In this document: positions 5,445-21,367 of the stretch, piece by piece
Position numbering within the stretch: the first letter of the stretch is position 1
Layout: every line of letters starts with the position of its first letter
NCBI RefSeq assembly: GCF_024273195.1
Contig: NZ_JAMZCU010000001.1
Location: 705,652-769,651, forward strand
DNA from: Devosia ureilytica
GTDB lineage: Bacteria > Pseudomonadota > Alphaproteobacteria > Rhizobiales > Devosiaceae
Direction of reading: 5' to 3'
Length of the DNA stretch: 64,000 bases
Made by a program: the position numbers and the translations under genes
Notes under the pieces: generated by a model
Database searches by the model: none
What the model was told of the DNA's origin: nothing
Seen by the model: only the letters and a program-made list of their open reading frames with translations

Positions 5445-5544
5445 GGAAGCCTCGAAGTGATTTCGGAAGCTTCCATACATGAGTGAGCGGGATATTCCAG
5501 TCAGTGCGAAGGCCGTCGGCGCCATCGGTGCCGACGGCCTCGGA

Positions 5545-7464
5545 TTATGCGGCTTCGGCCAGTTGCCCGAGCTTGACCTGCACCAGCAAGCTCAGTTCGT
5601 CATAAACGTTCCACTCATCGACGATCTTGCCGTCTTTCCAGTGGTAGTGGCTCATGCCCATCACCTGGACACGCTTGCCTGTCGGGTCGCCCAGTTCGTT
5701 CAGAATGCCATAGCCGAGGTGGTGGCCTTCCATGATCCAGCGCACGGCGACCTTGGTGCCGCCCTCGACGCATTCGTTGGAAGCGACGTGCTGAACCTCG
5801 TAAGAGGCATCGGGCAGCGAGCCAATCAGCCCCAGATGCTGGTGAATGATGGCGGCGTGGCCGTAAAGTTCCTTCATCAGCGGCCCGTGATATTGCGCAT
5901 TGGGCGCGTAATCCTGGGCGATGCGGCCGAACATGCGCTTGGTGAACACCTCGTGCAGCATTTCGATGGTCTGCGCTTCGACGTCGTTATGGGCAAGCGA
6001 GGTGTCAGCCTTCTCGACGGGGCGGGTCTGGCCCACGAAGCGGCGATTTTCGCCGATGTCGAGGGAGGTCAGCCCCGCGTCGAACTTCTGCTGCGCGGTG
6101 CGCATGGCAAAGTGGTTCGGATCGAGCCCCAATTGCTTGATGATCGCCATTTGATCGGCCACCACCCATTCGCGATAGATCATGTTGCGATGGATCATGC
6201 AGTCGGCAATCGTGCGGCTGACAAAGGGCTTGAATGTCGGCTGGCCGAGATGGCCATATTGGGTGTGGCGGCCGGAGCCGGTGACCAGGTGGCTGGTGTA
6301 GAAACCGTCCTGATCGTTGCCGTTCCAGATCACCTGCGTGCCCATGCCGCGGCGCTCGGGGAAGCTCACTAGCCGCTGGATGGTGTCGCGGACCACGTCC
6401 TCGCGATTGTAGATCGTGCCGGTGGTGCCGTAGAGCACGCAATTGTGGGTGTAGTGGGTGTAGATCAGGCCGATATCACGCTCATCCCAGATCTTGTGGG
6501 TGCAACGAATGATGTAGTCCACGATATCGGTGTAGATGTCATCGAAGCCTTCCAGAGCCTGGCTGCGCTTGCGATTTGTTGGCGCCAGATCGGGATAATC
6601 ATTGCGCTCGACTTGCAGAACGCTCTCTTCATTGCGGAGCGACGGCGAGCCGCCCTTGGCTTTGGGGTTGGTCTCGGTGTCGCTCATGATCGCTCCTTGG
6701 TGATCTGCCGGTGTGGCTTGATCGATGTCGGTCCAGTCCAGCCAGTCGCGTATATGACGCGCCACTGCAGCCGGATTTTCAAGCGGCGCAAAATGCCCCG
6801 CGTCGGGAATGGTAAAGAATCGGGCGCCGGCAATGGCGTCAGCCATCTCCCGGTGCGCCTCCAGCGGGCAGACCTGTTCGTTGCTGCCTGCCAGGATCAG
6901 CGTTGGAATGCTTATGTTGCCCAGTCGCGGGCGGCTGTCGGCACGGTGGATGGCCACTTCGCTCTGGCTCGACAGAACCTCTGCGCCCGCATCATTGGCC
7001 ATGGCGGTGATCAGCGTGCGCAGCGCGGCATTGTTCTTATTGACCGGCGCCACGAGGTTGCCCCAGGCGTCGGCGATATAACTCGCCATGCCGGCAGAGC
7101 GCGCCTTGGCGACGGCGGACCGGCGTTTTTCGGCATTGGCTTCCGGGTCAGGCCGGGGTGTCGTGTCGACCAGAGCCAGTCGTGCCACCCGTTCAGGCGC
7201 CTGGGCGATAATTTCCAGCGCCACGATGCCGCCAAGGGAAAAACCGAGCAGCGAAAACTGCTTCGGGGCGCTGGCGAGGATGTGCGCGGCGAGCTCGCGG
7301 GTGGTCGTCGCGCCGGTCATGCTCACGACCTGGGCGGAGACGGCGAGTTGCTTGAGAATTGGTGCAAACAGCCGTTCGTCGCAAACCGTGCCCGGTAGTA
7401 GCAACAGCGGCAGGTCGCCGGTGGGCTGACTAACGGCTTCGGATATGGGCGCGGCCTGGTTCAT
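5545..7464 (-). CDS. Alpha/beta hydrolase read in frame into a double NTF2/SnoaL-like protein (639 aa)
   Basis: One uninterrupted frame holds two proteins. Residues 1-245 are an alpha/beta hydrolase with nucleophile elbow GFSLGG (Ser76) and His224 in DAGHFAP; the usual acidic position appears as Glu196 (GSNEQVCP) where Asp is normal. Residues 260-639 are two SnoaL/NTF2-like domains (about 305-430 and 500-635) of the ester-cyclase kind. At the junction an internal ATG at 6687..6685 is preceded by AAGGAG with 5-base spacing, exactly as for a separate 380-residue gene. The most economical reading is two cistrons whose intervening stop was lost, or a real fusion with internal re-initiation. The start overlaps the stop of the alcohol dehydrogenase (ATGA). 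The substrate is unknown; the operon belongs to the LacI regulon. Confidence 0.75.
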   Translation of the reverse strand: MNQAAPISEAVSQPTGDLPLLLLPGTVCDERLFAPILKQLAVSAQVVSMTGATTTRELAAHILASAPKQFSLLGFSLGGIVALEIIAQAPERVARLALVDTTPRPDPEANAEKRRSAVAKARSAGMASYIADAWGNLVAPVNKNNAALRTLITAMANDAGAEVLSSQSEVAIHRADSRPRLGNISIPTLILAGSNEQVCPLEAHREMADAIAGARFFTIPDAGHFAPLENPAAVARHIRDWLDWTDIDQATPADHQGAIMSDTETNPKAKGGSPSLRNEESVLQVERNDYPDLAPTNRKRSQALEGFDDIYTDIVDYIIRCTHKIWDERDIGLIYTHYTHNCVLYGTTGTIYNREDVVRDTIQRLVSFPERRGMGTQVIWNGNDQDGFYTSHLVTGSGRHTQYGHLGQPTFKPFVSRTIADCMIHRNMIYREWVVADQMAIIKQLGLDPNHFAMRTAQQKFDAGLTSLDIGENRRFVGQTRPVEKADTSLAHNDVEAQTIEMLHEVFTKRMFGRIAQDYAPNAQYHGPLMKELYGHAAIIHQHLGLIGSLPDASYEVQHVASNECVEGGTKVAVRWIMEGHHLGYGILNELGDPTGKRVQVMGMSHYHWKDGKIVDEWNVYDELSLLVQVKLGQLAEAA

Positions 7465-8564
7465 GCACCGAACTCGATGATGGTGCGGGCCATGACGCCG
7501 GTTTCGAGCCAGCGGAACGCTTCGTTGACCTGGTCCAGGGCAATTCGCTTGCCGATCTGGCGGTCGAGCGGCAGCTTGCCGCGCCGGTAGAGGGCCAGGA
7601 TGGACTTGATATCCTGCTCAGGAACGCCTCCGCCATAGATCGAGCCGATAATGCGCTTCTTGGAACCGGGAAAGCTGATGGCGGGAATGGCGAAATTGAC
7701 GCCGATGGGAGCAATGCCCACGATCACCACCGTGCCGGCGGGCCGGGTCATGGCATAGGCATTGCCCATGGCGACTGGGTGGCCCGTGCATTCGATGGCC
7801 GCATCGACGCCCCGCCCGCCAGTCAGGGCCTTGACTTGATCTACGGCATCAAGCTCGGCGGCGCTGACGAAATGGGTGGCGCCATAGCTGATGGCGACCT
7901 CGGTCTTGGCGGGGTTGGTATCGACGGCAATAATGGTCTCGGCACCGGCAAGAGCCGCCGCCTGAATGGCGTTAAGCCCAACGCCGCCAACGCCGACCAC
8001 CACAATGGATTGCCCGGCCTTGATCCGTGCGTCATTGACCACGGCGCCAAAGCCCGTTGTCACTGCGCAGCCCACCAAAGCCGCCACGGCGAAGGGCACG
8101 TCGTCAGGAATGATGATGCAGCCGGTTTCCGGGACAACTGCCAGTTCGGCAAAGGAGGAAACGCAGGAGTAATGCCCAATGGGCTGGGCCGCAGGCCCAA
8201 GGCGGCTGGTGCCGTCCCACAGCGCGCCTGCGCCGGCTGCTGCGCCATAGGTGTCGCACAGCGTCGGGTGGCTTTCGTTGCAGTAAAAGCAATGTCCGCA
8301 ATTGGGCGCCCAGCTCAACACCACCCGGTCGCCGGCTTTCACGCGCGAAACGCCAGCGCCGACGCGTTCGACTATGCCCGCCGCCTCATGGCCGGGGATC
8401 AGCGGCAATTGCGCGCCCGTCTTGCCGCGAATAGTCGAGAGATCACTGCTGCACACGCCGGTCGCCATGATCCGCACCAGCACTTCGCGATCCCGGGGCT
8501 CAGCAATGGCCACGTCTTCGATCAGGAGGTCGGCTCCAACACTCCGCAGGACCGCCGCTTTCAT
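7461..8564 (-). CDS. Zinc-dependent medium-chain alcohol dehydrogenase
   Basis: 367 residues from ATG 8564, preceded by AGAGGGG. The protein has the MDR layout: a GroES-like catalytic domain with a catalytic-zinc Cys in TGVCSSDL and His in PGHEAAG, a four-Cys structural zinc loop (CGHCFYCNESHPTLC), and a Rossmann domain with GVGGVGLNAIQ for NAD(P). The structural loop and length place it with class III/aryl-alcohol-type enzymes. It would oxidise an alcohol to an aldehyde in the cytoplasm. It is the first gene of a leftward unit with the hydrolase/SnoaL gene and shares the operator at 8721-8736 with the divergent HisD-like gene. The physiological alcohol is unknown. Confidence 0.87.
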   Translation of the reverse strand: MKAAVLRSVGADLLIEDVAIAEPRDREVLVRIMATGVCSSDLSTIRGKTGAQLPLIPGHEAAGIVERVGAGVSRVKAGDRVVLSWAPNCGHCFYCNESHPTLCDTYGAAAGAGALWDGTSRLGPAAQPIGHYSCVSSFAELAVVPETGCIIIPDDVPFAVAALVGCAVTTGFGAVVNDARIKAGQSIVVVGVGGVGLNAIQAAALAGAETIIAVDTNPAKTEVAISYGATHFVSAAELDAVDQVKALTGGRGVDAAIECTGHPVAMGNAYAMTRPAGTVVIVGIAPIGVNFAIPAISFPGSKKRIIGSIYGGGVPEQDIKSILALYRRGKLPLDRQIGKRIALDQVNEAFRWLETGVMARTIIEFGA

Positions 8565-8720: not shown

Positions 8721-8736
8721 TTGAATACGTATGCAA
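8721..8736. promoter_or_regulatory. Candidate LacI-family operator 1 (TTGAATACGTATGCAA)
   Basis: A 16-bp near-palindrome with one mismatch to TTGCATACGTATGCAA and a central CG, as in LacI/PurR-type operators. It lies in the divergent region between the alcohol dehydrogenase (start 8564) and the HisD-like gene (start 8824) and could control both. An upstream ATG at 8731 lies inside this site, which argues against using that ATG as a start. Confidence 0.72.
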
Positions 8737-8823
8737 GATCAATTCAGCACCATGAGACCGGTCTCGCCGCTTGCAGCCTGCAAACGCATTTCCGCCTCTC
8801 GCTGTCATTCGGAGATTCTTGTC

Positions 8824-10104
8824 ATGACGACTTCCCCCCTCCCCGGCGTCACCTATGTGAAGGCGCCTGAACGGTCCTCGATTGGCGACAATGCCCCGGT
8901 CGAGACGCTGGTCAGCGAGATCATCGCCAATGTTCGCAAGAACGGCGATGCGGCCGTGCGGGAGTACTCTGCAAAGTTCGACAAATCGGACATCGCCGTC
9001 TTCGAGGTCACCCAGGCCGAGCGCGAAGAGGCCCTGGCCGAACTCGATCCGCAGACCCGCAAGGACACCGAATTCGCCATCGCCAATGTGCGCAAATTCG
9101 CCCAAGCGCAGCTCTCGACCATCCTGCCGCTGGAAGTGGAAACGCTGCCCGGCGTGCACATGGGCCACCGGGTCATCCCGATCCAGCGCGTTGGCTGTTA
9201 TGTTCCGGGCGGCCGGTATCCCCTGCTGTCGGCGCCGATCATGACCATTGTGCCGGCCAAGGTGGCCGGCGTTGATGAAGTCATCGCTTGCCTGCCGCCC
9301 AATGCCCATAAGGCGATGATTGCCGGTTGCGTGCTCTCCGGCGCCGACCGCATCTTCCGCATCGGTGGCGCCCAGGCCATCGCCGCCATGGCCTATGGCA
9401 CCGAGAGCGTGCCTGCCGTGAACAAGATCGTCGGGCCCGGCAATGCCTTCGTCAACGAGGCCAAGCGCCAGGTTTTCGGGCCCGTCGGCATCGACCAGCT
9501 TGCCGGTCCCTCAGAGATTTTCGTCGTTGCGGATGCGACCGGCGATGCCGAGATGATCGCCACGGACCTTCTCGCCCAGGCCGAGCACGACATCCGCACG
9601 CGCGTTGGCCTCATCACCACCGACCGGGCCCTGGCCGAGGCCACGCTGGCCGAAGTCGAAAAGCAGCTCGAGACGCTGTCCACCGCCAATACCGCGCGTG
9701 AGGCATGGATCAACTACGGCGAGATCACCGTCTGCGAAAGCGAAGCCGCGATGATTGCCTATTCCGACCACATTGCCGCCGAGCACCTGCAGGTCCACAC
9801 CGCCGACGCCAAGGCTTTTGCGCTCAAGCTGCGCAACTACGGCTCGTTGTTCATCGGTGAATTGGCCAGCGTGGTCTATTCGGACAAGTGCAGCGGCACC
9901 AACCATACGCTCCCAACCATGGGCGCGGGCGCCTATACCGGCGGCCTCTGGGTCGGCGCCTATGTCAAGATCGCCACCCATCAGTGGCTGAGTGAAGATG
10001 GCGTCAAGCAGGTCGCGCCGCCCGCCGCGCGGCAATCGGCCAGTGAAGGTCTTGAGGGCCACCGCCGCGCCGCGCAACTCCGCCTGGACCGGATGCAGGC
10101 GTAA
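8824..10104 (+). CDS. Histidinol-dehydrogenase-family NAD-dependent dehydrogenase, catabolic paralogue 1
   Basis: 426 residues from ATG 8824, with GGAGA upstream. The HisD fold is clear: [26 protein letters not shown] and [10 protein letters not shown]. Expected zinc and catalytic residues are retained: Gln252 and His255 (LAQAEHD), Glu320-His321 (AAEHLQV), Asp354 and His413. HisD enzymes perform a four-electron oxidation of an alcohol to a carboxylate. The C-terminal region reads YTGGLWVG, which I do not associate with biosynthetic HisD, and no other his gene is nearby. Relatives such as HpsN oxidise a sulfonated propanediol, so a non-histidine substrate is likely. It stands alone on the plus strand with its own operator and terminator. 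A second, divergent copy is at 13825-15153. Confidence 0.82.
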
Positions 10105-10117
10105 GCGAGGCAAAAGC

Positions 10118-10146
10118 AAAAGGCCCGCGAAAGCGGGCCTTTTTTG
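10118..10146 (+). terminator. Rho-independent terminator after the HisD-like gene (probably bidirectional)
   Basis: An 11-bp stem (AAAAGGCCCGC, loop GAAA, GCGGGCCTTTT) is followed by further T residues on the plus strand. A-rich sequence on the other side gives a T-rich tail on the minus strand too, so it can also end the leftward cupin-rraA unit that stops at 10178. Confidence 0.88.
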
Positions 10147-10177
10147 TTCCTCTCCACATCGGACAGAAGACCAGCGC

Positions 10178-10879
10178 TCAGCTGATTTTATCCGCTTCCA
10201 GCCAAGCCGCCTTCAGTTTCTCAACCGTGAACCCGGGCGCCCGCGCGGCGGTGAGGATCGGCACTTCCTTGCGCATGACGACGTCGATGGCCCAGGCCAT
10301 GCGCTCGATATGCTCTGCCGGGATGACCACCCCGCCGTGGCGGTCTGCATGCACGAGATCGCCGGGGCGAACGGTCATGCCGAAGACGGTCACCGGGCAA
10401 TCGAGTTCGGTCACATGCACGAAGGCATGGCTGGGACCGACGGCGCCGGCGATGACCTGATAGCCTTCGTCGAGCATGCCCAGATCGCGCAGTACGCCAT
10501 TTGTCAGCGTGCCGGCAATGCCCAGTCCCTTGTGCTGTGCGACCTGCATTTCGCCCCAGAAGCCGCCGATGACATGGGGATAGTCCGTGTCCTCTATGAC
10601 CACGACATTGGGGCCTTCGCCGTCCGCCACATATTCGTAATAGGCCATGCGCAGGGCCCGCACCTCGGCGGCCGGCTTTTGGGCCGGTGACGAGGCGCGG
10701 ATCTTGGCCGTACGCGCAAAGCCGACCACGGGCGGCAGCGCGGGATCGGCGCAGACCACGGGGGTCTTGGTGAACCCCTCCGCTGTGCGCCCGCCCATCA
10801 CGTGCTCCAAGGCATTGCAGACCGTGGGCGTATCAGCCCCGCGCAGCGCGGCAAGAACATCTGGCGAGATGGTCGGCAT
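10178..10879 (-). CDS. RraA-like / 4-hydroxy-4-methyl-2-oxoglutarate aldolase family protein
   Basis: 233 residues from ATG 10879, four bases after the cupin stop and preceded by GGAGTAGGGG. It carries the family signature GTLTNGVLRDLGML, whose Arg-Asp pair binds the metal-pyruvate enolate in HMG/CHA aldolases, and the later DRHGGVVIP strand. Members either cleave 4-hydroxy-2-oxo acids to pyruvate or decarboxylate oxaloacetate; others (RraA) inhibit RNase E. The position inside a catabolic operon favours the aldolase or decarboxylase role. It is co-transcribed with the cupin protein under operator 2. Confidence 0.83.
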   Translation of the reverse strand: MPTISPDVLAALRGADTPTVCNALEHVMGGRTAEGFTKTPVVCADPALPPVVGFARTAKIRASSPAQKPAAEVRALRMAYYEYVADGEGPNVVVIEDTDYPHVIGGFWGEMQVAQHKGLGIAGTLTNGVLRDLGMLDEGYQVIAGAVGPSHAFVHVTELDCPVTVFGMTVRPGDLVHADRHGGVVIPAEHIERMAWAIDVVMRKEVPILTAARAPGFTVEKLKAAWLEADKIS

Positions 10880-10883
10880 GCCC

Positions 10884-11921
10884 CTACTCCGCCGCCTTGG
10901 CCGTGGACCAGGTCGGCGCCGCCGGCGCCGCAGCACCGCGCACAATGAAGGCAATGGCGTCAGCGGAAGACGGGTTGCGGAAGCCATGCGCCAGGCCAAC
11001 CGGCACAGTCAGCGTATCGCCGGCACCCAGGATGAGCACGCCATCGGCCCAGTTCACTTCCAGCGTACCGGACTGCACGAAGACCACCTCCTGCTCGGAT
11101 CGCGCATGCGCGGGAATAGCCGCGCCGGTTTCCAGCTTGAGGCGACGCAGTGCAAAGCCATGCTCCCAGTGCCCGACGATTGGCCCCGCCTTGAAGCCAT
11201 CGCCTGCGTCGACATCGCCAATGAGCGCGGCTTCCTCGACGCCCTCGCCGGCCAGTGCCGAGGCCGGATTGGCCTTCATGTCGGCGGCCTTGAGGGCATA
11301 TTTTGCCAGTTCGTCCATGGGCGGGGTGGCGAGTTCCTTCAGCTTTTCGGCCGTGGGTGGCTGTTCAAGTTCGGCGCCCTCGGGCACTTTTTCGCCCAGT
11401 GTCGTGTCGATCAGCTTGCCGCCCTTGAGCAGCTTGAGGCCGAAGTCCTCAGCCATCTTGAAGACGCTTGGCGCCCAGACAACCTTGCCCGGATCGTCAT
11501 GGCCGAGCACCACATACAGAAAGCCCGTTCCCTCGTCTCGTTTTTCGAAGCCGCGGAACATATGGGTGGGGACCGTTGCAACGTCGCCCGGCTCCACATC
11601 CAGATAGCCCTCGTCCTTGTTGGCGCCAAAGACAAAGCGCCACTTGCCGGTGTGGACCACGAAGGTCTCGGCTGTGAGATGGCTGTGCTGGCTATTGGTG
11701 CAGCCGAACGGTTGGCGGGCGGCACCGATATTGAAGCCGTGCGCCTCGGGAATATGCACCACCTGGGCCGGGTTTTCGGACACGCCCGGTCCAATGATGG
11801 TGAAGTTCTCCTTGCGGTCCGAGCCCGGCGTACGGGCATCGATAAATGCGTTACGCAGCCCCTTGAGGTCTGCATAGCGCACCATACGTTTCTCCATTTC
11901 AGCTTGGGTCCACTTGGTCAT
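10884..11921 (-). CDS. Two-domain cupin protein of a LacI-controlled catabolic operon
   Basis: 345 residues from ATG 11921, preceded by AAAGGA. Two cupin barrels are visible: residues 60-150 with NSQHSHLTAETFVVHTG, and residues 240-330 with the motif around IPAHARSEQEVVFVQSG and VPVGLAHGFRN. The first barrel has several His and a Glu that could bind a metal. Such proteins act as dioxygenases, isomerases or sugar-acid binding proteins, and I cannot assign a reaction. It is the first gene of the cupin-rraA unit, with a 16-bp operator 26 bases upstream of its start, so tight repression is likely. Confidence 0.75.
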   Translation of the reverse strand: MTKWTQAEMEKRMVRYADLKGLRNAFIDARTPGSDRKENFTIIGPGVSENPAQVVHIPEAHGFNIGAARQPFGCTNSQHSHLTAETFVVHTGKWRFVFGANKDEGYLDVEPGDVATVPTHMFRGFEKRDEGTGFLYVVLGHDDPGKVVWAPSVFKMAEDFGLKLLKGGKLIDTTLGEKVPEGAELEQPPTAEKLKELATPPMDELAKYALKAADMKANPASALAGEGVEEAALIGDVDAGDGFKAGPIVGHWEHGFALRRLKLETGAAIPAHARSEQEVVFVQSGTLEVNWADGVLILGAGDTLTVPVGLAHGFRNPSSADAIAFIVRGAAAPAAPTWSTAKAAE

Positions 11922-11946
11922 CGGACAGTCCTTTCACTCGCAAAAT

Positions 11947-11962
11947 TTGCATTCGTATGCAT
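11947..11962. promoter_or_regulatory. Candidate LacI-family operator 2 (TTGCATTCGTATGCAT)
   Basis: A 16-bp imperfect palindrome of the same family as the sites at 8721, 15191, 21330 and 21352, with a central CG. It lies 26 bases upstream of the cupin start and just downstream (in genome order) of the LacI gene stop, which suits repression of a separate cupin-rraA promoter. Confidence 0.75.
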
Positions 11963-12003
11963 CGAATATTGGAAAACCGGCGGGATAGAGGCGGATTGCA
12001 ACA

Positions 12004-13074
12004 TCACGCCTCCCGCGGTCGGTAAATGCGCTGACCGTCGCGTTCGACAATGCCGCTTTGCGGCAGTCGCGCGGAAGTGCGGACAATAAGCTCACCGCTC
12101 AGAATGCGGTGTTCAGCCTCGATTTCCCCACTGGCGATCTGGTCCATCAGGATATCGACGGTCGATTCCACCATGCGCTTGAGCGGCTGGCTCATTGTGG
12201 TGATGCCATAGGATGTCCAGCGCGCCGGACCCACGTCGTCAAAGCCGACGATGGAGAGCTCTTCGGGGATGTTCAGGCCGAGTTCGTATCGCGCTACGTC
12301 CATCACGGCGACGGCCATGTGGTCATTGGCAACGAAAATTGCTTCTGGGCGATCCGGGCGCGAAAGCATCACGCGCGCTGCGGCTTCAGCTTCCTTGCGC
12401 GAGTAATTGCCGGTCTCGACGACGAGATTGGTGTAGCCATTGGCTGCCAGCCCCTCGACATAACCCTCGTAGCGATCGCGATTGGTCGAGGAGTTTTCGA
12501 GGCCGGCGATATAGCCAAAGCTCGTGTGACCGCCGGCGACCAGAAAATCGGCTATGCGCTTGCCGCCTTCCCTGTTGCGCGTGGTGACACTGGAAACGGC
12601 GTCGCGCTCGGTCGTGCGGTTGAACAGAACCACCGGTATGCCGGCCGCCGCGCATTCCTCGGAGAGTTCGGAGGAAAGGGAGGTGGAGGCAAGGATGATG
12701 CCGTCCACGCGGTACTGCATCAATTGGTCGAACACCGGGTCGCTGTCGCGATCCATGAAGCCGGTGAACAGCAGCAGGTGATAGTTTTCCGCGGCCAGCG
12801 CCCTGCCCAATTCTTCGAGCACATCGGGATAGAACAGGTTTTCGAGATAGGCCATGACCACCGCGATGATGCGGGACCGGCTGGTAATCAGCGAACGCGC
12901 GATGGCATTGGGCCGATAGCCCAGCTCCTTGGCCGAGGCCAGGACCTTCTGCCGGGTCTTGGGAGAAATCGAGGCGCCGGGCGTAAAGGTGCGTGAGACA
13001 GCCGACTGCGAGACGCCGGCATGCTCGGCAACCCGCGAAGACGTTACGCCTGGCTTCTTTACTCCGCTGTCCAT
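12004..13074 (-). CDS. LacI-family transcriptional regulator, likely regulator of the catabolic regulon
   Basis: 356 residues. The N-terminal helix-turn-helix (SRVAEHAGVSQSAVSRTF) and hinge helix (GYRPNAIARSLITSRS) are followed by a periplasmic-binding-protein-like effector domain with IVGFDDVGPARWTSYGITTMSQP. The family binds palindromes with a central CG, matching the 16-bp repeat seen five times between 8721 and 21367. The gene overlaps the end of the SDR gene by 16 bases and is the last gene of the HisD2-SDR-lacI unit, which itself has an operator, so autoregulation is expected. The inducer is unknown. Confidence 0.92.
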   Translation of the reverse strand: MDSGVKKPGVTSSRVAEHAGVSQSAVSRTFTPGASISPKTRQKVLASAKELGYRPNAIARSLITSRSRIIAVVMAYLENLFYPDVLEELGRALAAENYHLLLFTGFMDRDSDPVFDQLMQYRVDGIILASTSLSSELSEECAAAGIPVVLFNRTTERDAVSSVTTRNREGGKRIADFLVAGGHTSFGYIAGLENSSTNRDRYEGYVEGLAANGYTNLVVETGNYSRKEAEAAARVMLSRPDRPEAIFVANDHMAVAVMDVARYELGLNIPEELSIVGFDDVGPARWTSYGITTMSQPLKRMVESTVDILMDQIASGEIEAEHRILSGELIVRTSARLPQSGIVERDGQRIYRPREA

Positions 13075-13823
13075 CCGCCATCCACCAATAGAGAAGTGCC
13101 GGTCACCAGAGCGGCGGCATCGGAGGCCAGGAACACGATGGGGCCCATGATGTCTTCAACGCGCCCCAGGCGCCCGAGCTTGATCTTGGAAAGGACCCAG
13201 CTTCGGAATTCCGGGTTGCTGAGATTTTTCGCGGTCAGGTCGGTTTCGATGAAGGTCGGACAGATCGTGTTGACCCGAATATTGTGCCGCCCCAGGTCTA
13301 TCGCCATGCCCTTGCTCAGCCCTTCGACGGCAAACTTGCTGGCAGAATAAAGCGCACGGTCGGGGCCGCTGACATGGCCCATCTGGGATGAAATGTGAAT
13401 GATCGAGCCGGGTAGGCCCACCTCAGTCAGCCGCGCAACGACCGCCTGGGACACAAAAAGCGTTGCGGACAGGTTGATGTCCATCACCGCCTGATAATTG
13501 GCCGGGGTGATGTCGGCAAAGCTGGAATGGCGGCCGGTGCCGGCCGAATTGACCAGAACCTGGAACGGCTCGACTTCCTCGACAAAGGCCCGGACAGCGT
13601 CGGTATCGGTGATATCAATCGCCACGCCCTCGGCGGCCAGCCCAGCGGCGCTGAACTGCTCCACCACGGTCGTGACGTCGGCAGCGGTGCGGGCGGCAAT
13701 AGTCACCGCCGCCCCCGCCTCTGCCAGCGCCACCGCCGCACCCAGCCCGATGCCGCGCGTACCCCCGGTAACGAGGGCGCGCTTGCCATCAAGGCGGAAG
13801 CTTGGGGTGCGTGGCAGGGTCAT
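13059..13823 (-). CDS. Short-chain dehydrogenase/reductase (SDR) of the catabolic regulon
   Basis: 254 residues from ATG 13823, one base after the HisD2 stop; a longer frame to 13919 would run into HisD2. It is a classical SDR: cofactor motif TGGTRGIGLGAA near residue 18, NSAGTG near 89, catalytic Ser in IHISSQMG and the Tyr-x3-Lys motif in YSASKFAVEG. The C-terminal LLVDGGWT strand is typical. It would interconvert a hydroxyl and a keto group with NAD(P). Its tight linkage to HisD2 and lacI puts it in the same pathway; the substrate is unknown (GdhA/gluconate-5-dehydrogenase-like enzymes look similar). Confidence 0.87.
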   Translation of the reverse strand: MTLPRTPSFRLDGKRALVTGGTRGIGLGAAVALAEAGAAVTIAARTAADVTTVVEQFSAAGLAAEGVAIDITDTDAVRAFVEEVEPFQVLVNSAGTGRHSSFADITPANYQAVMDINLSATLFVSQAVVARLTEVGLPGSIIHISSQMGHVSGPDRALYSASKFAVEGLSKGMAIDLGRHNIRVNTICPTFIETDLTAKNLSNPEFRSWVLSKIKLGRLGRVEDIMGPIVFLASDAAALVTGTSLLVDGGWTAE

Positions 13824-13824
13824 G

Positions 13825-15153
13825 TTATTGGGCCACCTCGATACGGGGTGTGGCACCCGTGCCATAGGGAATGTTGCGCCCGCCATAGCGGCGTACGCGC
13901 ACATTGGCCTGCTCGGCATGACCGACGAAGCCTTCGAGCATGCTCAGCCGCGATCCGTATTCCCCGATCATGGCCGAGGCCGCATCGGTGGTCACAGTCT
14001 GCCAGGTACAGGTTTTCATGAATTTCCCCACCCATAGACCACCCGTATAGCGCGCCGCTTTCATTGTGGGGAGGGTGTGATTGGTGCCAATGACCTTATC
14101 CCCATATGCGACATTGGTGCGGGGGCCGAGGAACAGGGCGCCGTAATTGGTGAGATTGTCGCGGAACCACATGTCCCGGTCGGTCATGACCTGCACGTGC
14201 TCGGAGGCAATGCGGTCGGCCTCGACCAACATCTCGTCGTAGCTCTCGCAGACGATGACCTCGCCGAAGTCGGCCCAGGACTTGCGCGCGATTTCGCCGG
14301 TCGGCAGGATTTCGAGCAGGCGCTCGATTTCGGCCATGGTTTCGCGGGCGAGCTTTTCCGACGTGGTCAGGAGGATTGCCGGGGTCGTCGGGCCATGCTC
14401 GGCCTGGCCCAGGAGGTCGGTGGCACACATTTCGCCATCGACGGTCTCGTCAGCAATCACCAGGGTCTCGGTCGGGCCGGCGAACAGGTCGATGCCGACA
14501 CGTCCGAACAGCTGGCGCTTGGCTTCGGCCACGAACGCATTGCCTGGTCCCACCAGCATGTCGACCGGATCGATGCTTTCGGTGCCGATGGCCATGGCGC
14601 CGATGGCCTGGATGCCACCCAGGACGTAGATTTCATCGGCACCGGCCATTGCTTGTGCGGCAACGACGGCCGGTGCCGGCTTGGCTCCAAAAGGCGGAGC
14701 ACAAGTTATGACGCGCTCACAGCCTGCGACCTTGGCGGTGATAACCGACATATGGGCGGAGGCGAGCAGCGGGTATTTGCCGCCGGGGACATAGCAGCCC
14801 ACGGCGTTGATCGGCACATGCTTGTGCCCGAGCGTGACGCCCGGAAGCGTCTCGACAGTGAGATCGGTCATGGTTGCGCGTTGCGCCTGGGCGAAATTGC
14901 GCACCTGGGTCTGGGCGAATTCGATATCGTGCAGATCCTGATCAGTGAGCTGGGCCAGGCAATCATCGATTTCGCGCTGGCTCAGGCGGAAGTCGCTGCG
15001 CTCCCACTTGTCGAATTTCTGCGACAGCTCGATGATCGCGGCATCACCGCGCTTTTCGATGTCGCCAAGGATAGCCTCAACAGTGGCCCGAACCTGGCGA
15101 TCCGCCTCGGCCCGTTCTTCCACATCCTTGCCGCGCTTGAGCCAGACTGGCAT
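13825..15153 (-). CDS. Histidinol-dehydrogenase-family NAD-dependent dehydrogenase, catabolic paralogue 2
   Basis: 442 residues from ATG 15153, preceded by GAGGAG. A longer frame to 15240 would start upstream of the operator and is rejected. HisD motifs are present ([60 protein letters not shown]), so the zinc and Glu-His catalytic residues appear retained. Like the copy at 8824 it has [10 protein letters not shown] rather than a histidine-biosynthesis-like ending. The two copies share motifs but differ widely elsewhere, so they probably act on different alcohols of one pathway. It opens the HisD2-SDR-lacI unit behind a perfect 16-bp operator. Confidence 0.82.
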
Positions 15154-15190
15154 GTGCCGCTCCTCGTATTCTTCTAGTGTTAATCCAGTC

Positions 15191-15206
15191 TTGCATACGT
15201 ATGCAA
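15191..15206. promoter_or_regulatory. Candidate LacI-family operator 3, perfect palindrome TTGCATACGTATGCAA
   Basis: A fully symmetric 16-bp palindrome 38 bases upstream of the HisD2 start. It lies between the amidase stop (15259) and HisD2, so the HisD2-SDR-lacI unit has its own regulated promoter even though the amidase upstream runs in the same direction. Confidence 0.8.
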
Positions 15207-15258
15207 AAATGTAAATCGGAACCATCATCGAAGACATCAAAATGTCCTCGACCGATGG

Positions 15259-16806
15259 TCAGCTAAGCGGTGGGGGCCGCTGGATGGCGTGATCCGTGGC
15301 GAGTTCAAAGGCATCGCCGATCTGGACGATGCTGGCTTCGCCGTGATGTCGTCCGACAATCTGCATGCCCAGCGGCAGGCCCTTGTGAAACCCGATGGGC
15401 AGCGCCAGCACGGGATGCCCGCTGACGTTGAACCCGATGGTTCGCATCGGCGTCCACACTGGTTCCTTTTCAAAGGGTGCCGCCGGCAGCGCCGTCGTCA
15501 ATGCGCCTGCGGTGATCAGGGCGTCATGGTCTTGCAAAAGCCGATCCACTGCGGTGCGGAACACTGCACCTGCCCGCTTGGCCTCGGAGAGTTCCGCGTC
15601 GGACACGTCGATGCCGGCGGCCAGGCTCAAGAAGGTGCGCCGACCATAGGACTGCGGTTGGTCGCGCAGGGCCTTGGCGTGGTAATCGAAGCTCTCCCGG
15701 TGAAGAATAGCAGCGGCGGCAACCTCGATGGCGTCATAATCCGGCAGGTCGACCTCGGTGATCACGGCACCCAGTTCGGACAGTTTCGACAGCGCGGCGT
15801 CCATCGCCGTCAGCATGGCGGGCATGGTCTGGCTGTCATGCGCGAACCAATTGCGCGCATAGCCGATCCGCAGGCCCGCAATGGGATGACCAAGCAGGCT
15901 CGCCGCCCGGCTTCCCGAGATCACGTCCAGCGTCACAGCAGCCTCTGCGACCGTGGCGCTCATGGGACCAACATGATCCATGCTGGCAGACATGCCGAGT
16001 ACGCCGCGTTGTGACACAGTGCCAAAAGTCGGCTTGAGCCCAACCACGCCGCAGTAGAACGCCGGGCCGCGCAGTGAACCACCGGTGTCCGTGCCGACTG
16101 TGGTGCGCAACAGACCGCCGGCAATGGCAACGCCGCAGCCCGAGGATGAGCCGCCGGTAATGTGATCAAGGCTCCAAGGATTGCGGGCCGGCGGGAACAA
16201 TCCGCCCTTGTCCGGTCCAACCGTGCCCCATTCATAGGTCGCCAGTTTGCCCAAGAGGATAGCGCCCCCTGCCCGCAGCCGCTCGATGACGTCCGCGTCA
16301 TTGCCGGCAATGGCGTCGGACCGGCCAGGCGCGTCTGCCGTGGTGGGCAGTCCGGCAATATCGATCAGATCCTTGATGCCAACCGGAATGCCGTGAAGGG
16401 GCCCGCGATCAATGCCCGCCGCCAGGTCTGCATCGGCGCGCGCCGCATCGGCCAGGGCCTGCTCCGCAAGCACCAGATAGAACGCGCGATACGCGCCGTC
16501 CCGGGTCGCAATGCGATCCAGATGCGCTTGCACAAGCGCTACCGAGGTCAGTCGACCATCGCGCAAGCGCTGGCCCTGTTCGAGGAAACTGAGATCCAGC
16601 ACGCCGTTCTGATCGGCCGCGACATCGCCGGGCAAGGCGTCACCGAGACCCGCCACGCCGTCGCGCAGCCAGGATGCCAGCCTGAAAACGCCGTCTGCCT
16701 CGGATGAAGACAGATTGATGCCGTGCGCGGCGACACGCTCGGCGAAGGCCGCACGAGCCTCGTCCTCAGATGTGTTTTTGACCACCGCCGACTCCTGCCC
16801 GGACAT
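15259..16806 (-). CDS. Amidase signature family hydrolase
   Basis: 515 residues from ATG 16806, one base after the stop of the ABC ATPase gene. The Ser-cisSer-Lys triad is visible: Lys in GIPVGIKDLIDIAG, cis-Ser in GGSSSGCG and nucleophile Ser in TDTGGSLRGPA. The long N-terminal helix (residues 1-60) before the amidase core resembles AtzF/allophanate-hydrolase-like and other catabolic amidases rather than GatA. It would hydrolyse an amide to acid plus amine in the cytoplasm. Its location as the last gene of the importer operon suggests that the imported molecule, or an early intermediate, is an amide. No separate operator is seen in front of it. Confidence 0.86.
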   Translation of the reverse strand: MSGQESAVVKNTSEDEARAAFAERVAAHGINLSSSEADGVFRLASWLRDGVAGLGDALPGDVAADQNGVLDLSFLEQGQRLRDGRLTSVALVQAHLDRIATRDGAYRAFYLVLAEQALADAARADADLAAGIDRGPLHGIPVGIKDLIDIAGLPTTADAPGRSDAIAGNDADVIERLRAGGAILLGKLATYEWGTVGPDKGGLFPPARNPWSLDHITGGSSSGCGVAIAGGLLRTTVGTDTGGSLRGPAFYCGVVGLKPTFGTVSQRGVLGMSASMDHVGPMSATVAEAAVTLDVISGSRAASLLGHPIAGLRIGYARNWFAHDSQTMPAMLTAMDAALSKLSELGAVITEVDLPDYDAIEVAAAAILHRESFDYHAKALRDQPQSYGRRTFLSLAAGIDVSDAELSEAKRAGAVFRTAVDRLLQDHDALITAGALTTALPAAPFEKEPVWTPMRTIGFNVSGHPVLALPIGFHKGLPLGMQIVGRHHGEASIVQIGDAFELATDHAIQRPPPLS

Positions 16807-16807
16807 G

Positions 16808-17863
16808 TCAGTCAGCCACGATACGCGCGCCGCTCGTCCGATCAAACAGGTGACAGGCCGCAGGCGGAACATTGAATTTGGCGCTATCGCCAATCTCGGC
16901 GCGATAGTCCTTGCCGACTTTGATCGAGACCAGTTCGCCGGCGACGCGCATGGAGATCATGGTCGCTTCGCCCAGCAGCTCGACCGAATAGATCGGCGCC
17001 TCGATCTGACCCTGACCCTCGGCCAGCGTCGCGTCTTCGGCCCGGAAGCCGAGCGTCACCGCGCCGTTTGTCGCCTTCGACAGACCTTCAATGCGGATCT
17101 TGTCGCCCGTAAAGACGCCATCGGCAATATTGCCATGGACCAGGTTCATGGCTGGCGAGCCGATGAAGCTGGCGACGAAAGTATTGGCCGGACGGTCATA
17201 GATTTCCATCGGCGTGCCGACCTGCTGGATGAGGCCCTTGCTCATCACCACTACCCGGTCTGCCAGCGTCATGGCTTCGATCTGGTCATGGGTCACATAG
17301 ATCGTCGTGCGCTTGAGCGTGTGGTGCAGGTTCTTGATCTGAGCCCGGGTCGAGACACGCAGCTTGGCGTCAAGGTTGGACAGCGGCTCGTCCATGAGGA
17401 AGGCATTGGGCTCGCGCACGATCGCACGGGCCAGTGCCACGCGCTGGCGTTGACCACCCGAGAGGGCCGCCGGACGGCGCTGCAGGAAATCGTCCAGCTC
17501 CACCATCTTGGACGCGGCCATAACCCGTTCATGATGCTGGTCCTGGGGTACCTTCCGGACCTTGAGCGGGAAACGGATGTTCTCGTAGACGGTCATGTTC
17601 GGATAGAGCCCGTAGCTCTGGAACACCATCGAGATGTCCCGATCCTTGGGCTCGAGCTTGTTGACCAGGCGGTCGCCAATCCAGATTTCGCCTTCGGTAA
17701 TGTCCTCGAGCCCGGCAATCATGCGCATGGTCGTGGTCTTGCCGCAGCCCGAAGGCCCCAGCAAAACCAGGAATTCCTGGTCGGCGATATCGAGATTGAA
17801 ATTGTCCACGCCGACAAAATTGTTCCAGCGCTTGGAGACGTTCTTGAGACGGATCTGAGCCAT
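16808..17863 (-). CDS. Sugar-type ABC transporter ATP-binding protein (UgpC/MsmK-like)
   Basis: 351 residues, the normal length for the CUT1 carbohydrate-importer ATPase. Walker A is GPSGCGKTT (36-44), the signature is LSGGQRQ (134-140) and Walker B ends in LMDEP (Asp158-Glu159). The C-terminal third is the regulatory OB-fold (TOBE) region that contacts the periplasmic-protein/permease system in MalK relatives. It follows the two permease genes with a 4-base gap and precedes the amidase with a 1-base gap, so the whole importer plus amidase is one transcript. Confidence 0.93.
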   Translation of the reverse strand: MAQIRLKNVSKRWNNFVGVDNFNLDIADQEFLVLLGPSGCGKTTTMRMIAGLEDITEGEIWIGDRLVNKLEPKDRDISMVFQSYGLYPNMTVYENIRFPLKVRKVPQDQHHERVMAASKMVELDDFLQRRPAALSGGQRQRVALARAIVREPNAFLMDEPLSNLDAKLRVSTRAQIKNLHHTLKRTTIYVTHDQIEAMTLADRVVVMSKGLIQQVGTPMEIYDRPANTFVASFIGSPAMNLVHGNIADGVFTGDKIRIEGLSKATNGAVTLGFRAEDATLAEGQGQIEAPIYSVELLGEATMISMRVAGELVSIKVGKDYRAEIGDSAKFNVPPAACHLFDRTSGARIVAD

Positions 17864-17867
17864 GGGA

Positions 17868-18761
17868 TCAGCCTTTCACTGCGCCGGCGGTGAGCCCGCT
17901 GACGATCTGGCGTTGGAAGAAGAGGACGAGAATGAACAGCGGCACGGTCGCCGAAACCACGGCAGCAACGGCATACATGACGTTTCCGGCCTCCTGCACC
18001 GAGCCGAGGAAGCTAGAAATTTTGGGTACCATGGTCTGGTTGTCGGCGCTGAGCAGCATCGAGGTCGTGGCGAAGTCGTTGTAGGCCAGGAGGAAACTGA
18101 ACAGCCCTGTCGTGACCACGCCGGGCCACATCACCGGGATGATGACCATGCGGAAGGCCTGGAAGCGTGTGCAGCCGTCAACCATCGCGCTCTCGTCGAG
18201 GTCCTTGGGAATGCTGAGGAAAAACGAGTGCAGCATCCATAGGGTGAAGGGCTGGTTGATCGCCACCAGCACGATGATGGAGGTTGGCAGCACGCCCCAG
18301 ATATTGAGCTGGAAGAACGGCAGCAGATAGCCAGACACCAACGTAATGTGCGGCATGGCGCGGAAGACCAGCGCCGCGATCAGGATCCAGAACGCATAGC
18401 GCTGACCCGAGCGCGCCAGGGCGTAGCCGCCCAGCGTCCCCAGCGTCAGCGAAATCACCGTCACCGACACTGTAACAATGGCCGTGTTCATCACCGCCCG
18501 CCAGAATTCACGCGTCACCCAGGCGCCGTAATAGCCGTCGCCTGTGAAGGTGCCGCCGGTCTGTGCCTGCGTATAGGTGCCGAAAATGGCGTTCCACCAG
18601 CTTTCGCGCGAGAAGAAGTCCGGCTCGACCTTGAACGAACCCCACACCGTCCAGAAGAACGGGAAGGCCGCCAGAACCACCCACAAGATGATGAAAAGCG
18701 AGATCAGCAGATTGAGCGGCAAGGGGCGCTTTTGCGTCAGTGTAGCGTAGGACATGGTCAC
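17868..18761 (-). CDS. ABC transporter inner-membrane permease, MalG type
   Basis: 297 residues with six predicted membrane segments, the first being LNLLISLFIILWVVLAAFPFF. The cytoplasmic EAA loop that docks to the ATPase is visible as MVDGCTRFQAFRMVIIPV. The start overlaps the stop of the other permease by 4 bases (ATGA). A soluble insert between the first two membrane segments (residues 45-85, rich in Gly and Trp) is larger than in simple sugar permeases. It forms a heterodimer with the product of 18758-19789. Confidence 0.92.
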   Translation of the reverse strand: MTMSYATLTQKRPLPLNLLISLFIILWVVLAAFPFFWTVWGSFKVEPDFFSRESWWNAIFGTYTQAQTGGTFTGDGYYGAWVTREFWRAVMNTAIVTVSVTVISLTLGTLGGYALARSGQRYAFWILIAALVFRAMPHITLVSGYLLPFFQLNIWGVLPTSIIVLVAINQPFTLWMLHSFFLSIPKDLDESAMVDGCTRFQAFRMVIIPVMWPGVVTTGLFSFLLAYNDFATTSMLLSADNQTMVPKISSFLGSVQEAGNVMYAVAAVVSATVPLFILVLFFQRQIVSGLTAGAVKG

Positions 18762-19789
18762 ACCACCTTGTGGTTGAATTCGCGCCAGGTGCGCACCAGC
18801 ACCGGGCTCAGCAGAATGACGACACCAATGATGGTGATGACGGATGTTGCGCCGGCCGAGCCGAACAATTGCGAGTCCCCGCTCAGGTCATTGAAGATCA
18901 GCCAGCTGAGCGAGGTGGCATTGGATTCGGCCGAGAAGCCGACAATGGGTTCAAAGACACGGAAATTGTCCATCAGCTGAACCAGCGCCACAAAAGTTGC
19001 GAGCGGCGCCAGGTGCGGGATGATGACGTAGCGGATGCGCTCCCAACGGCTGGCGCCGTCGATCATGGCGGACTCCAGCGTATCGCCGGGCACGGTCTGA
19101 AGACCGGCATAGAACACCACGAAGCTGAATGGGGCATTGGTCCAAACGCCGTAGAACAACAGCGACCCCCAGGTCAGCGCCGGCGATTGGCGCAGCGACA
19201 AGGTCGGGTCATCGAAAATGTTCTGGAGTGTGGCCCCGATGATGCCGTTGGACTGGATCATCCAATAAAGAATGAGCGAGCCGATCAGAGGCGTGATGAT
19301 CATCGGCAGCAGCGAGAAAAAGATCACCGGCCCCTTGATCGCCCGGGGGACGGCATTGACCGCCAGGGCAATGGTAAAGCCCAGCACCATGGCCAGCGGC
19401 GTCACCACGAAGCAAAAGACCAGCGTGAAGGAAAGCGCCTTGTAGAAGGGCAGATTGTATATGCGGCTGACGGCATCGCCAAAGCCTGCATTATTGCTCA
19501 GGATCGCGCCGACCTCGGCGACTGCCAGGTGCCCACGATTGAAATAGGTGCCCAGCCCGTTGAACATGCCCATGGGCTGCTCGGCGCGAATTTTGGCCAT
19601 GGCGGCGGTATCAACCCGCACCTCCGTGGTGCATCCGCCGAAGGGCTGGCAGTTTTCCACCTCGACCAGCACGCGCTGGTGTTCGACGTGAAAACTTTGA
19701 ACCACCACCGAAACGATCGGCAGCGCAATGAACAGGACCATCGCGATCAGCGAGGGCAGGATGAAGGCAAAGAATGTCTTGTGTGGCAT
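18758..19789 (-). CDS. ABC transporter inner-membrane permease, MalF type
   Basis: 343 residues. ATG 19789 has GGAGG 6 bases upstream and is preferred to the ATG at 19804. The protein opens with a membrane segment (FFAFILPSLIAMVLFIALP) and then a periplasmic loop of about 80 residues containing NCQPFGGCTTEV, whose two Cys could form a disulfide. The EAA docking loop is AMIDGASRWERIRYVIIPH. A periplasmic loop after the first segment is a MalF feature that helps receive ligand from the binding protein. It follows the binding-protein gene after a 150-base gap with hairpins. Confidence 0.92.
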   Translation of the reverse strand: MPHKTFFAFILPSLIAMVLFIALPIVSVVVQSFHVEHQRVLVEVENCQPFGGCTTEVRVDTAAMAKIRAEQPMGMFNGLGTYFNRGHLAVAEVGAILSNNAGFGDAVSRIYNLPFYKALSFTLVFCFVVTPLAMVLGFTIALAVNAVPRAIKGPVIFFSLLPMIITPLIGSLILYWMIQSNGIIGATLQNIFDDPTLSLRQSPALTWGSLLFYGVWTNAPFSFVVFYAGLQTVPGDTLESAMIDGASRWERIRYVIIPHLAPLATFVALVQLMDNFRVFEPIVGFSAESNATSLSWLIFNDLSGDSQLFGSAGATSVITIIGVVILLSPVLVRTWREFNHKVV

Positions 19790-19868
19790 GCAATGCCTCC
19801 CCATTCGCGGACGTAGTGTATGGGCGTTATATCGCCACGTCGCCCCTTCGCTTGGCCGAGAAGGGTCG

Positions 19869-19930
19869 CGATGAGGGGGCCGAACAAGGCTCCCTCATCG
19901 ACGCTGCGCTATCCTCCCCCTGGAGGGGAG
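19869..19930. repeat. Two intergenic hairpins between binding-protein and permease genes
   Basis: Hairpin A spans 19869-19900: 13-base arms (CGATGAGGGGGCC and GGCTCCCTCATCG) with one mismatch and a 6-base loop. Hairpin B spans 19914-19930, with arms CTCCCC and GGGGAG. They lie just after the binding-protein stop on the minus strand, where importers often carry stabilising or partially terminating stems so that binding protein is made in excess. There is no run of T after either stem, so full termination is unlikely. Confidence 0.6.
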
Positions 19931-19941
19931 AACGAAGAAGG

Positions 19942-21180
19942 CTAGAGGTAGCCGCCTTCCTTGGCAGCAGTGTCATAGGCGGCCTTGACGTCGGCCAGAG
20001 CCTGGGCCGCATCTTCGGTACCAGCCATGTATTCGGCAAGCTCGGAGGACAGGGCTGTGTGCAGCAGGCCCATATAGGGCTGCATCGGATAAGCACGGGC
20101 ACCGCCGGTGGCCGTGGCAATCACGCCGACTGCTGCCGGGCCTGGCTCGTAGCCAGCGACCAGCCAGGTGGCAACGGCCGGATTGGCAGCGACCATTTCG
20201 GGGCTGATGCCATGCACCATGGCCTGGAACGAGGCTGCGGCGTCTTCGTCAGAGACGTTCTTGGCGATGGTGAAACCGTCCCACCACAGCGCAACGGCCG
20301 GGATGGAACCGCCACCGATGGTCGGAGCAGCGGCCAGCACGGTGTTTTCCACCACGCCTTCAGCAGCGCCTTCGCCGTCGAGTGCATTGCCCGCCAGCGA
20401 GCCCCACTCATTCATCATTGCCGTATTGCCGGCCTCATACTCGGCCAGGATGCCATTGGCATCAAAGGTCAGGTAATCGGGGTCCATATATTCGGTCATG
20501 GCGCGCATGATCTCGAGGACCTTCAGGCCATTCTCATTGTCGATGGCAAGCTCGGCCGAGCCGGGCGCGAAGAACTCGGCACCGGTGCCCAGGTAGCTGT
20601 TCACAAACTCTGCCGCCAGGTCCCAGCCGGGCTTGACGGAAGCAGCCAGCGGATAGTCCATCAGGCCGGCATCCTTGATGGCCTTGGCAGCGGCCAGCAT
20701 GTCTTCATAGGACGTCGGAGCGGCGACGCCGGCAGCGTCCAGGATGTCCTTGCGATAGAACAGGTGCTGCGCATTGCCCATGAAGGCGATGGCCATCACC
20801 TTGCCATCGATCTTGATCAGCTGATTGGGCTGCAGATCCTGGCCGTATTTCGCCACAAGGTCATCGAGCGGACGGATGAGGTCGTCGTTCAGCAGCGGCA
20901 CAATGGAGTTGTTGGCAACCACGGCGACGGTATATTCAGCCGGATTGATCGAGAGCGCAGGCACTTGGAGGTTCTTGTGCTCGGCAGTGGCGTTGGCGGT
21001 AACAGTGAGGCCATCGGTGGCGCATTCGCCAGCAGTCGTATTGATAAGGCGAAGGGCCTCGAAATCATTGCTGAGGATGCGGACCGAACCGGCGCCCTCG
21101 ATGCCGCAATCGGCAAAAGCTGCACCTGCTGTAAGGCACAGAACGCCAAGTGAGACAGTAGTCTTCAACATAAGCTTCAT
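19942..21180 (-). CDS. ABC transporter extracellular solute-binding protein
   Basis: 412 residues from ATG 21180, preceded by AGGAG; the frame is open to 21264 but lacks such a site. The signal peptide is clear (MKLMLKTTVSLGVLCLTAGAAFA, cleaved before DCG), and the mature protein starts with a Cys paired by later Cys rather than a lipobox. The size and the NEWGSLAGNALDG and GFTIAKNVSDED segments fit family-1 (MalE-like) binding proteins for carbohydrate-related ligands. It is the first gene of the importer operon, downstream of two operators. The ligand is unknown, and its identity would define the whole regulon. Confidence 0.9.
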   Translation of the reverse strand: MKLMLKTTVSLGVLCLTAGAAFADCGIEGAGSVRILSNDFEALRLINTTAGECATDGLTVTANATAEHKNLQVPALSINPAEYTVAVVANNSIVPLLNDDLIRPLDDLVAKYGQDLQPNQLIKIDGKVMAIAFMGNAQHLFYRKDILDAAGVAAPTSYEDMLAAAKAIKDAGLMDYPLAASVKPGWDLAAEFVNSYLGTGAEFFAPGSAELAIDNENGLKVLEIMRAMTEYMDPDYLTFDANGILAEYEAGNTAMMNEWGSLAGNALDGEGAAEGVVENTVLAAAPTIGGGSIPAVALWWDGFTIAKNVSDEDAAASFQAMVHGISPEMVAANPAVATWLVAGYEPGPAAVGVIATATGGARAYPMQPYMGLLHTALSSELAEYMAGTEDAAQALADVKAAYDTAAKEGGYL

Positions 21181-21329
21181 TTTGTTCTCCTGACGGTGAA
21201 CGGCGCTCACTAAGTCTTGCGCCGACCATCCCCTGTTGTCGTTTGACGCTCCCGCGACGGGCACCGCCCCTTAAAAAGGTGGCGCTACCAGCCATTTTGT
21301 CTTCCGCACGTCACAATTGGTAAGCGGCC

Positions 21330-21345
21330 TTGCATACGAATGCAA
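21330..21345. promoter_or_regulatory. Candidate LacI-family operator 4 (TTGCATACGAATGCAA)
   Basis: 16-bp palindrome with a single central asymmetry, in front of the binding-protein gene. Its centre is 22 bp from the centre of the next site, two helical turns, so two regulator dimers could bind on the same DNA face. Confidence 0.75.
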
Positions 21346-21351
21346 GCACTT

Positions 21352-21367
21352 TTGCATTCGTATGCAA
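21352..21367. promoter_or_regulatory. Candidate LacI-family operator 5 (TTGCATTCGTATGCAA)
   Basis: Second copy of the palindrome upstream of the importer operon, and the reverse complement of operator 4, so the pair forms a larger symmetric element. The importer is the only unit with two sites. The surrounding stretch 21368-21645 shows no gene on either strand. Confidence 0.75.

Follow-up and report, generated by a model that had tools for sequence, protein, structure and literature searches.

We analyzed a 64,000-nucleotide stretch of the Devosia ureilytica genome (assembly GCF_024273195.1, contig NZ_JAMZCU010000001.1, positions 705,652 to 769,651; hereafter the window), which holds a cluster of genes that includes one for a LacI-family regulator, together with five copies of a 16-bp palindrome, TTGCATWCGWATGCAA. 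An earlier note on this DNA had proposed that the palindromes define a single regulon under this regulator. The five sites that it had located are all present, at positions 8721, 11947, 15191, 21330 and 21352 (1, 1, 0, 0 and 0 mismatches), and they are the sole matches in the window at up to 3 mismatches; in 100 shuffles, the mean was 0.67 matches and one shuffle had 5 or more. The remark that the motif occurs nowhere else holds for the genome as a whole, as a scan of 3,807,253 bases on 20 contigs at up to 1 mismatch returned exactly the five window sites. Frequent occurrence elsewhere, which by the note's account would speak against a regulon, was thus looked for in 3.81 Mb and not found, there being no sixth site at this threshold. 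At 2 mismatches, there is one extra match (C1:373338); its surroundings are a coding frame, which we read as that of an NtrY-type sensor kinase. The reversed control likewise gives one match at this threshold.

Gene starts in the cluster were set by alignment of orthologues (adh 8564, hisD1 8824, cupin 11921, hisD2 15153, binding protein 21180). With these starts, all five sites are intergenic and each stands in front of a transcription unit, as had been described; a purely mechanical list of open reading frames contains longer or opposite-strand frames that overlap the sites, for example 13825-15240 and 8731-10104. The first putative operator, TTGAATACGTATGCAA (8721..8736), lies between hisD1 (8824..10104), the only cluster gene on the plus strand, and a divergent unit made of adh (7461..8564) and a hydrolase/SnoaL gene (5545..7464). 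The second, TTGCATTCGTATGCAT (11947..11962), is found 25 bp upstream of the start of the cupin gene (10884..11921), which forms a unit with rraA (10178..10879). The third, TTGCATACGTATGCAA (15191..15206), precedes hisD2 by 37 bp; this gene (13825..15153) is followed by a short-chain dehydrogenase (SDR) gene (13059..13823) and by lacI (12004..13074) and, since lacI belongs to the unit behind this site, it would be autoregulatory, with its own operator upstream. The fourth and fifth, TTGCATACGAATGCAA (21330..21345) and TTGCATTCGTATGCAA (21352..21367), are 22 bp from each other, about two helical turns, and lie upstream of the importer operon. This operon encodes a binding protein (19942..21180), two permeases of the MalF (18758..19789) and MalG (17868..18761) types, an ATPase (16808..17863) and, as its last gene, an amidase (15259..16806). 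The earlier count of about 13 proteins is right. A terminator-like hairpin of 11 pairs (10118-10143) is located between the convergent hisD1 and rraA genes.

The palindromes and the LacI-family regulator

The regulator (356 aa) carries a LacI-type helix-turn-helix at its N-terminus (PF00356, 40.6 bits, cut-off 27) and a C-terminal periplasmic-binding-protein-like ligand domain (PF13377, 106.9 bits). An even palindrome with a central CG is reported for most LacI regulators (PMC4052901). The window shares with the local LacI regulons of sugar catabolism described there the 16-bp even palindrome, the central CG, the few local targets, the autoregulation and a sugar-type ABC importer. It differs from them in that its 13 proteins include no glycoside hydrolase, no kinase and no classical sugar pathway, the enzymes being instead HisD-like, SnoaL-like, cupin, RraA and amidase proteins.

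To follow the sites in related genomes, as the earlier note had advised, we used the regulator as a guide. LacI orthologues of 82-90% identity are present in 18 of 36 genomes of the genus, and more distant ones in G021 (52%) and in the order-level relative G056 (48%). Seventeen of the 18 orthologue neighbourhoods were taken at 20 kb, the eighteenth being an 11-kb contig (L067). The sites recur at the same promoters: the cupin, importer and hisD1 promoters bear one in 17/17 neighbourhoods (for hisD1 in G017, on a second contig, L056). We then added the window and two further loci (L068 and L080) to obtain a set of 20 Devosia loci, scanned at up to 3 mismatches. All 96 sites found there precede a cluster gene, at a distance of 19-175 bp, and all 96 have the central CG that had been pointed out as typical for the family. 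At least one site precedes the importer in every locus of this set and the cupin gene in 20/20, and 18 of the 20 loci have the importer double site (at up to 4 mismatches) with a spacing of 21-24 bp; in Sinorhizobium medicae, the spacing is 22 bp. The hisD1/hydrolase promoter has an off-consensus half-site in 19/19 sites, which looks like a tuned affinity.

We next compared the presence of motif and regulator in 37 genomes, with the motif at up to 1 mismatch and the LacI protein at least 52% identical. The motif occurs in 12 of them, that is, in 11/11 genomes with the regulator and in 1/26 without it; in the latter (G016), a LacI relative of 40% identity adjoins two sites. With the reversed control pattern, the 37 genomes yielded a single match (on both strands), in the order-level relative G042. 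The sites are thus unique to the cluster in the D. ureilytica genome and conserved together with the regulator and the genes.

The same gene families are found in Pantoea, Enterobacter, Buttiauxella, Roseomonas, Sinorhizobium, Paracoccus, Novosphingobium and many roseobacters. We assembled 89 wider loci, reaching from Devosia to roseobacters, sphingomonads and Enterobacterales: seven plasmid regions found via LacI or cupin, the best 80 of the listed named loci by LacI alignment, and L054 and L055. The 80 named loci had been fetched with two peptide patterns, and the palindromes played no part in the choice. One of these patterns is the recognition helix itself, AGVSQSAVS, so that nothing was drawn from its apparent conservation. 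At up to 2 mismatches, 70 of the 89 loci contain 139 sites, compared with none for the reversed pattern; L054 and L128 represent the same place, and if it is counted once there are 136 sites in 69 of 88 loci. Almost all sites (133/139) fall in the interval from 400 bp before the start of a listed family member to 60 bp past that start. They stand beside LacI homologues in Pantoea, Roseomonas and Sinorhizobium and beside a LacI protein of 41% identity in Novosphingobium.

The proposal of one LacI-governed regulon is therefore supported by the conservation of the sites in the genus, by the co-occurrence of regulator and motif, and by the same pairing in other orders and in a second class. Judged from sequence comparison, the regulon is real, with the local LacI-family protein as its likely regulator. 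We are confident, short of certainty, in a model in which the five palindromes serve as operators of this protein, which would repress four promoter regions until an inducer releases it. What we infer from the data is that LacI binds, that it represses and does not activate, and that its inducer resembles a sugar or a polyol. Without inducer, LacI would occupy these regions and repress hisD1 with the divergent adh-hydrolase/SnoaL unit, cupin-rraA, hisD2-sdr-lacI by autoregulation, and importer-amidase by way of two operators. The imported compound or an early product of it would free the repressor, and importer and enzymes would be made together. LacI regulons are common; what the present one brings together are enzymes with misleading automatic names (histidinol dehydrogenase, ester cyclase, cupin, ribonuclease regulator) or with none. 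The compound that frees LacI from the third operator would offer a direct handle on the substrate.

Two other readings of the sites were considered. The palindromes could be bound by a different regulator, for example another LacI protein of the genome, while the local one controls its own operon or something else. Counting itself, the local LacI has 18 matches in a search of the genome, and in other Devosia there are paralogues of 36-40% identity whose own genes adjoin nearly identical sites. We nonetheless hold this reading to be very improbable, as the motif follows the orthologous regulator among the 37 genomes and accompanies LacI homologues in the distant genera named above. It is about equally improbable that LacI acts as an activator or a dual regulator and not as a simple repressor. 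The distances from site to start codon are unequal (25 bp for cupin, 37 bp for hisD2, 149 and 171 bp for the importer), and a single mode of action at all promoters is consequently not proven; on the other hand, the spacing of the importer sites by about two turns fits cooperative repression no less well. Characterized LacI regulators are mostly repressors.

Several observations weigh against the model of operators bound by the local LacI. The hisD2 promoter lacks the site in one of the 17 Devosia neighbourhoods (L045), leaving 16/17, or 19/20 in the set of 20 loci. A scan for sigma-70 promoters found no more than in shuffles (3 vs 3.2). No site at up to 2 mismatches was detected in 19 of the 89 wider loci, several of which are short or end before the importer promoter; in L120, the importer promoter is visible and has no site. 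When 13 of these 19 were scanned at up to 4 mismatches, 10 matches were obtained vs 7 for the reversed pattern, so that weak sites are indistinguishable from chance except by their place. Two do lie at expected places, upstream of hisD2 (L070) and of a binding-protein gene (L143). The wider loci, being chosen by similarity of LacI or cupin, are not an unbiased sample. Finally, the near-identical operators at LacI paralogues make cross-binding possible in some genomes. Such operators, TTGCATACGGATGCAA and similar, stand beside paralogous lacI genes of other Devosia at L028:240-279, L031:2583-2621 and G022:C2:894155, and operator divergence after duplication is possible.

HisD-type enzymes and the predicted aldolase

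HisD1 and HisD2 match the HisD family, both above the cut-off of TIGR00069 (histidinol dehydrogenase, NCBIfam). A role in histidine biosynthesis was rejected for them, as the genome has a third HisD protein, on contig 17, with a higher family score (557.8 bits vs 459.9 and 455.3 for the two proteins of the window); HisD1 is 35% and HisD2 39% identical to it. The nearest solved structure to HisD2 is that of HpsN, the R-DHPS 3-dehydrogenase (8v35), with 379 bits vs 259 for the best HisD. HpsN is described as having the signature GRY[A/S]H with His126, and HisD the motif GSAPL (PMC11382572). To examine these positions, we aligned the 84 homologues whose match exceeds 330 residues (17 HisD1 and 67 HisD2), leaving out 5 shorter ones of the 89. 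None of the 84 has His in the column of HpsN His126, where all have L, I or M, and all 84 keep Glu318, His319, Asp352 and Lys353; the genome's own HisD has Tyr for Lys353. The GSAPL column reads GRYPL in HisD1 and GKYPL in HisD2, and it reads GLASY in the genome's own HisD, so that this motif does not decide. In a FastTree tree that included one HpsN and one HisD, HisD1 formed one clade of 18 rows (support 1.0) and HisD2 another of 68 rows (support 0.895), and HpsN was placed within the HisD1 and HisD2 group. We read HisD1 and HisD2, on the basis of these alignments, as two further families of the HisD/HpsN superfamily that would act on a different substrate.

The relationship to HpsN also bears on the pathway as a whole, which might be the catabolism of dihydroxypropanesulfonate (DHPS), with HisD1 and HisD2 as HpsN and the SDR as HpsO. 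The pairing of a HisD-superfamily enzyme that keeps E318, H319, D352 and K353 with an SDR resembles hpsN-hpsO of the cluster hpsRNOUP-suyAB (PMC11382572), and HpsN is the closest solved structure to HisD2. The window differs from that cluster by its two HisD-type enzymes, by its LacI regulator, by RraA, cupin, amidase and SnoaL proteins in place of SuyAB, and by the loss, in every homologue aligned, of the histidine reported to tell HpsN from HisD. By family name, no SuyAB-type lyase was recognized within the cluster, whose 13 proteins are the part of the genome that was searched for one. We know of no role for RraA, cupin, amidase or SnoaL proteins in DHPS catabolism, and altogether this assignment seems very improbable.

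RraA homologues are found in 45 of the 89 wider loci and an HpcH/HpaI aldolase in 10; no locus has both and 34 have neither, an exclusion with a Fisher p of 0.0005 for rows that are not independent. The stretch [DE]-x20-R-D is a motif of RraA-fold class II pyruvate aldolases. The RraA-like protein of the window (PF03737) has it as E-x20-R-D, and 44 of the 45 homologous stretches keep the motif, the one exception being an incomplete match at the end of a contig. The characterized HMG/CHA aldolases have the same fold and stretch, and Arg-123 has been named as essential (PMC5065237); the similarity of the window RraA to them is low (3noj at E 1e-4) and far below the NCBIfam cut-offs. The swap with an HpcH/HpaI aldolase suggests, by analogy, that the RraA of the cluster is also a pyruvate-type aldolase, predicted to be of class II.

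On the HpcH/HpaI side, the Pantoea protein is nearest to 6r62 and its variants. The protein Swit_5035 of Rhizorhabdus wittichii RW1 matches 6r62 (SwHKA, a hydroxyketoacid aldolase) residue for residue over 250 aligned residues, and crystals of SwHKA with hydroxypyruvate and D-glyceraldehyde have been described (PMC10099721). Its gene stands between alpha/beta hydrolase and cupin genes homologous to those of the window, where an RraA-type protein takes the place of the aldolase. It is located at L065:13228-13980. This stretch of a plasmid, with IS4-family transposase genes on either side, also carries a homologue of the window SDR.

A possible pathway and its substrate

HisD-type, SDR and cupin genes occur together in 57 of the 89 wider loci. 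The statement in the earlier note that the proteins have no known common pathway can be made more precise: the genes recur together as one set, apparently a catabolic one. Among the papers listed in literature searches on the gene combination, none describes the cluster or the pathway, as judged by title and start of abstract. In distant bacteria, related gene sets behind the same switch apparently serve to degrade a nutrient resembling a polyol. We tentatively propose an order of import, hydrolysis, oxidation by HisD, oxidation by SDR and aldolase cleavage, a scheme that is possible as a whole and falls short of being probable. The compound would enter through the sugar-type ABC system or, in eight Enterobacterales loci, an MFS carrier, and an amide or ester bond would be hydrolysed by the amidase and/or the alpha/beta hydrolase. 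A HisD-type enzyme would then oxidize the terminal CH2OH to COOH in a four-electron oxidation, and the SDR the next CHOH to C=O. The RraA-type aldolase would cleave the resulting 2-oxo acid to pyruvate or hydroxypyruvate and an aldehyde (retro-aldol). The cupin, SnoaL-like and MetE-C-like proteins have been allotted no step.

Put more generally, and with the same reserve, the regulon could guard an undescribed aerobic pathway, distributed among Alpha- and Gammaproteobacteria, in which a polyol-type compound loses three-carbon 2-oxo acids (hydroxypyruvate or pyruvate). After oxidation by a HisD-type enzyme and by the SDR, either of two unrelated aldolases, of the RraA or the HKA type, would release them; HisD1 and HisD2 would be two new enzyme families, and SwHKA would find its natural role here. 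Two points tell against it. The Rhizorhabdus stretch, as fetched, contains no LacI, no HisD and no site, and the assignment of the aldolase draws on the swap, the motif and analogy. If the proposal is right, it would give a possible physiological setting to SwHKA, an aldolase studied for synthesis, in a system found in taxa as distant as Devosia, Sinorhizobium, marine roseobacters and Enterobacterales.

Pantothenate, riboflavin, ascorbate, betaine lipids and branched polyols were set aside as substrates, none of them explaining the whole gene set. We give hardly any credence to a mycosporine or a similar O-methylated polyol containing an amide-like bond, whose breakdown would have the MetE-like protein demethylate, HisD oxidize a CH2OH beside C-OH, and amidase and hydrolase split the enaminone: a MetE-C-like protein with the candidate zinc ligands H-x-C and C (e.g. 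L066:13009-14130) is indeed encoded in 47 of the 89 wider loci and 6 of the 17 Devosia neighbourhoods, but it was not found in the window or in nine Enterobacterales loci (one a fragment), so that demethylation is excluded as a core step, and bacterial mycosporine breakdown appears in none of the literature matches listed.

Remaining proteins of the cluster

The importer has the composition of a CUT1-type sugar ABC importer, with a UgpC/MalK-type ATPase (NF008653, 459.8 bits, cut-off 432), two permeases (both PF00528) and, by fold match, a sugar-type substrate-binding protein. The structure model of the latter (mean pLDDT 91.7) supports the broad fold of a sugar-binding protein and names no ligand. 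The model of the cupin protein (mean pLDDT 89.6) shows a bicupin like oxalate decarboxylase, YxaG and seed vicilins, and names no reaction. The amidase-signature hydrolase (PF01425) has the motif GGSSSG, and the SDR has YxxxK. The zinc alcohol dehydrogenase encoded by adh (PF08240, PF00107) has a homologue in just 2 of the 17 Devosia neighbourhoods.

The gene that had been described as a hydrolase does encode an alpha/beta hydrolase (PF00561); the description left out that, in this 639-aa protein, the enzyme is fused to SnoaL-like domains (PF07366). In Pantoea, Paracoccus and Sinorhizobium, the two parts carry separate gene annotations. The hydrolase/SnoaL gene is followed at 19 bp, on its own strand, by a glycoside hydrolase family 2 gene (2985-5525), read by us as a beta-mannosidase, and the two may form one transcript; no homologue of the latter gene was found in the relatives fetched, several of which end nearby. 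A search for neighbouring genes in the wider loci also gave long reverse-frame open reading frames without meaning. Among the further genes that recur there, as we read their sequences, are those for SnoaL-like proteins in 50 loci and for an amidohydrolase in 7.

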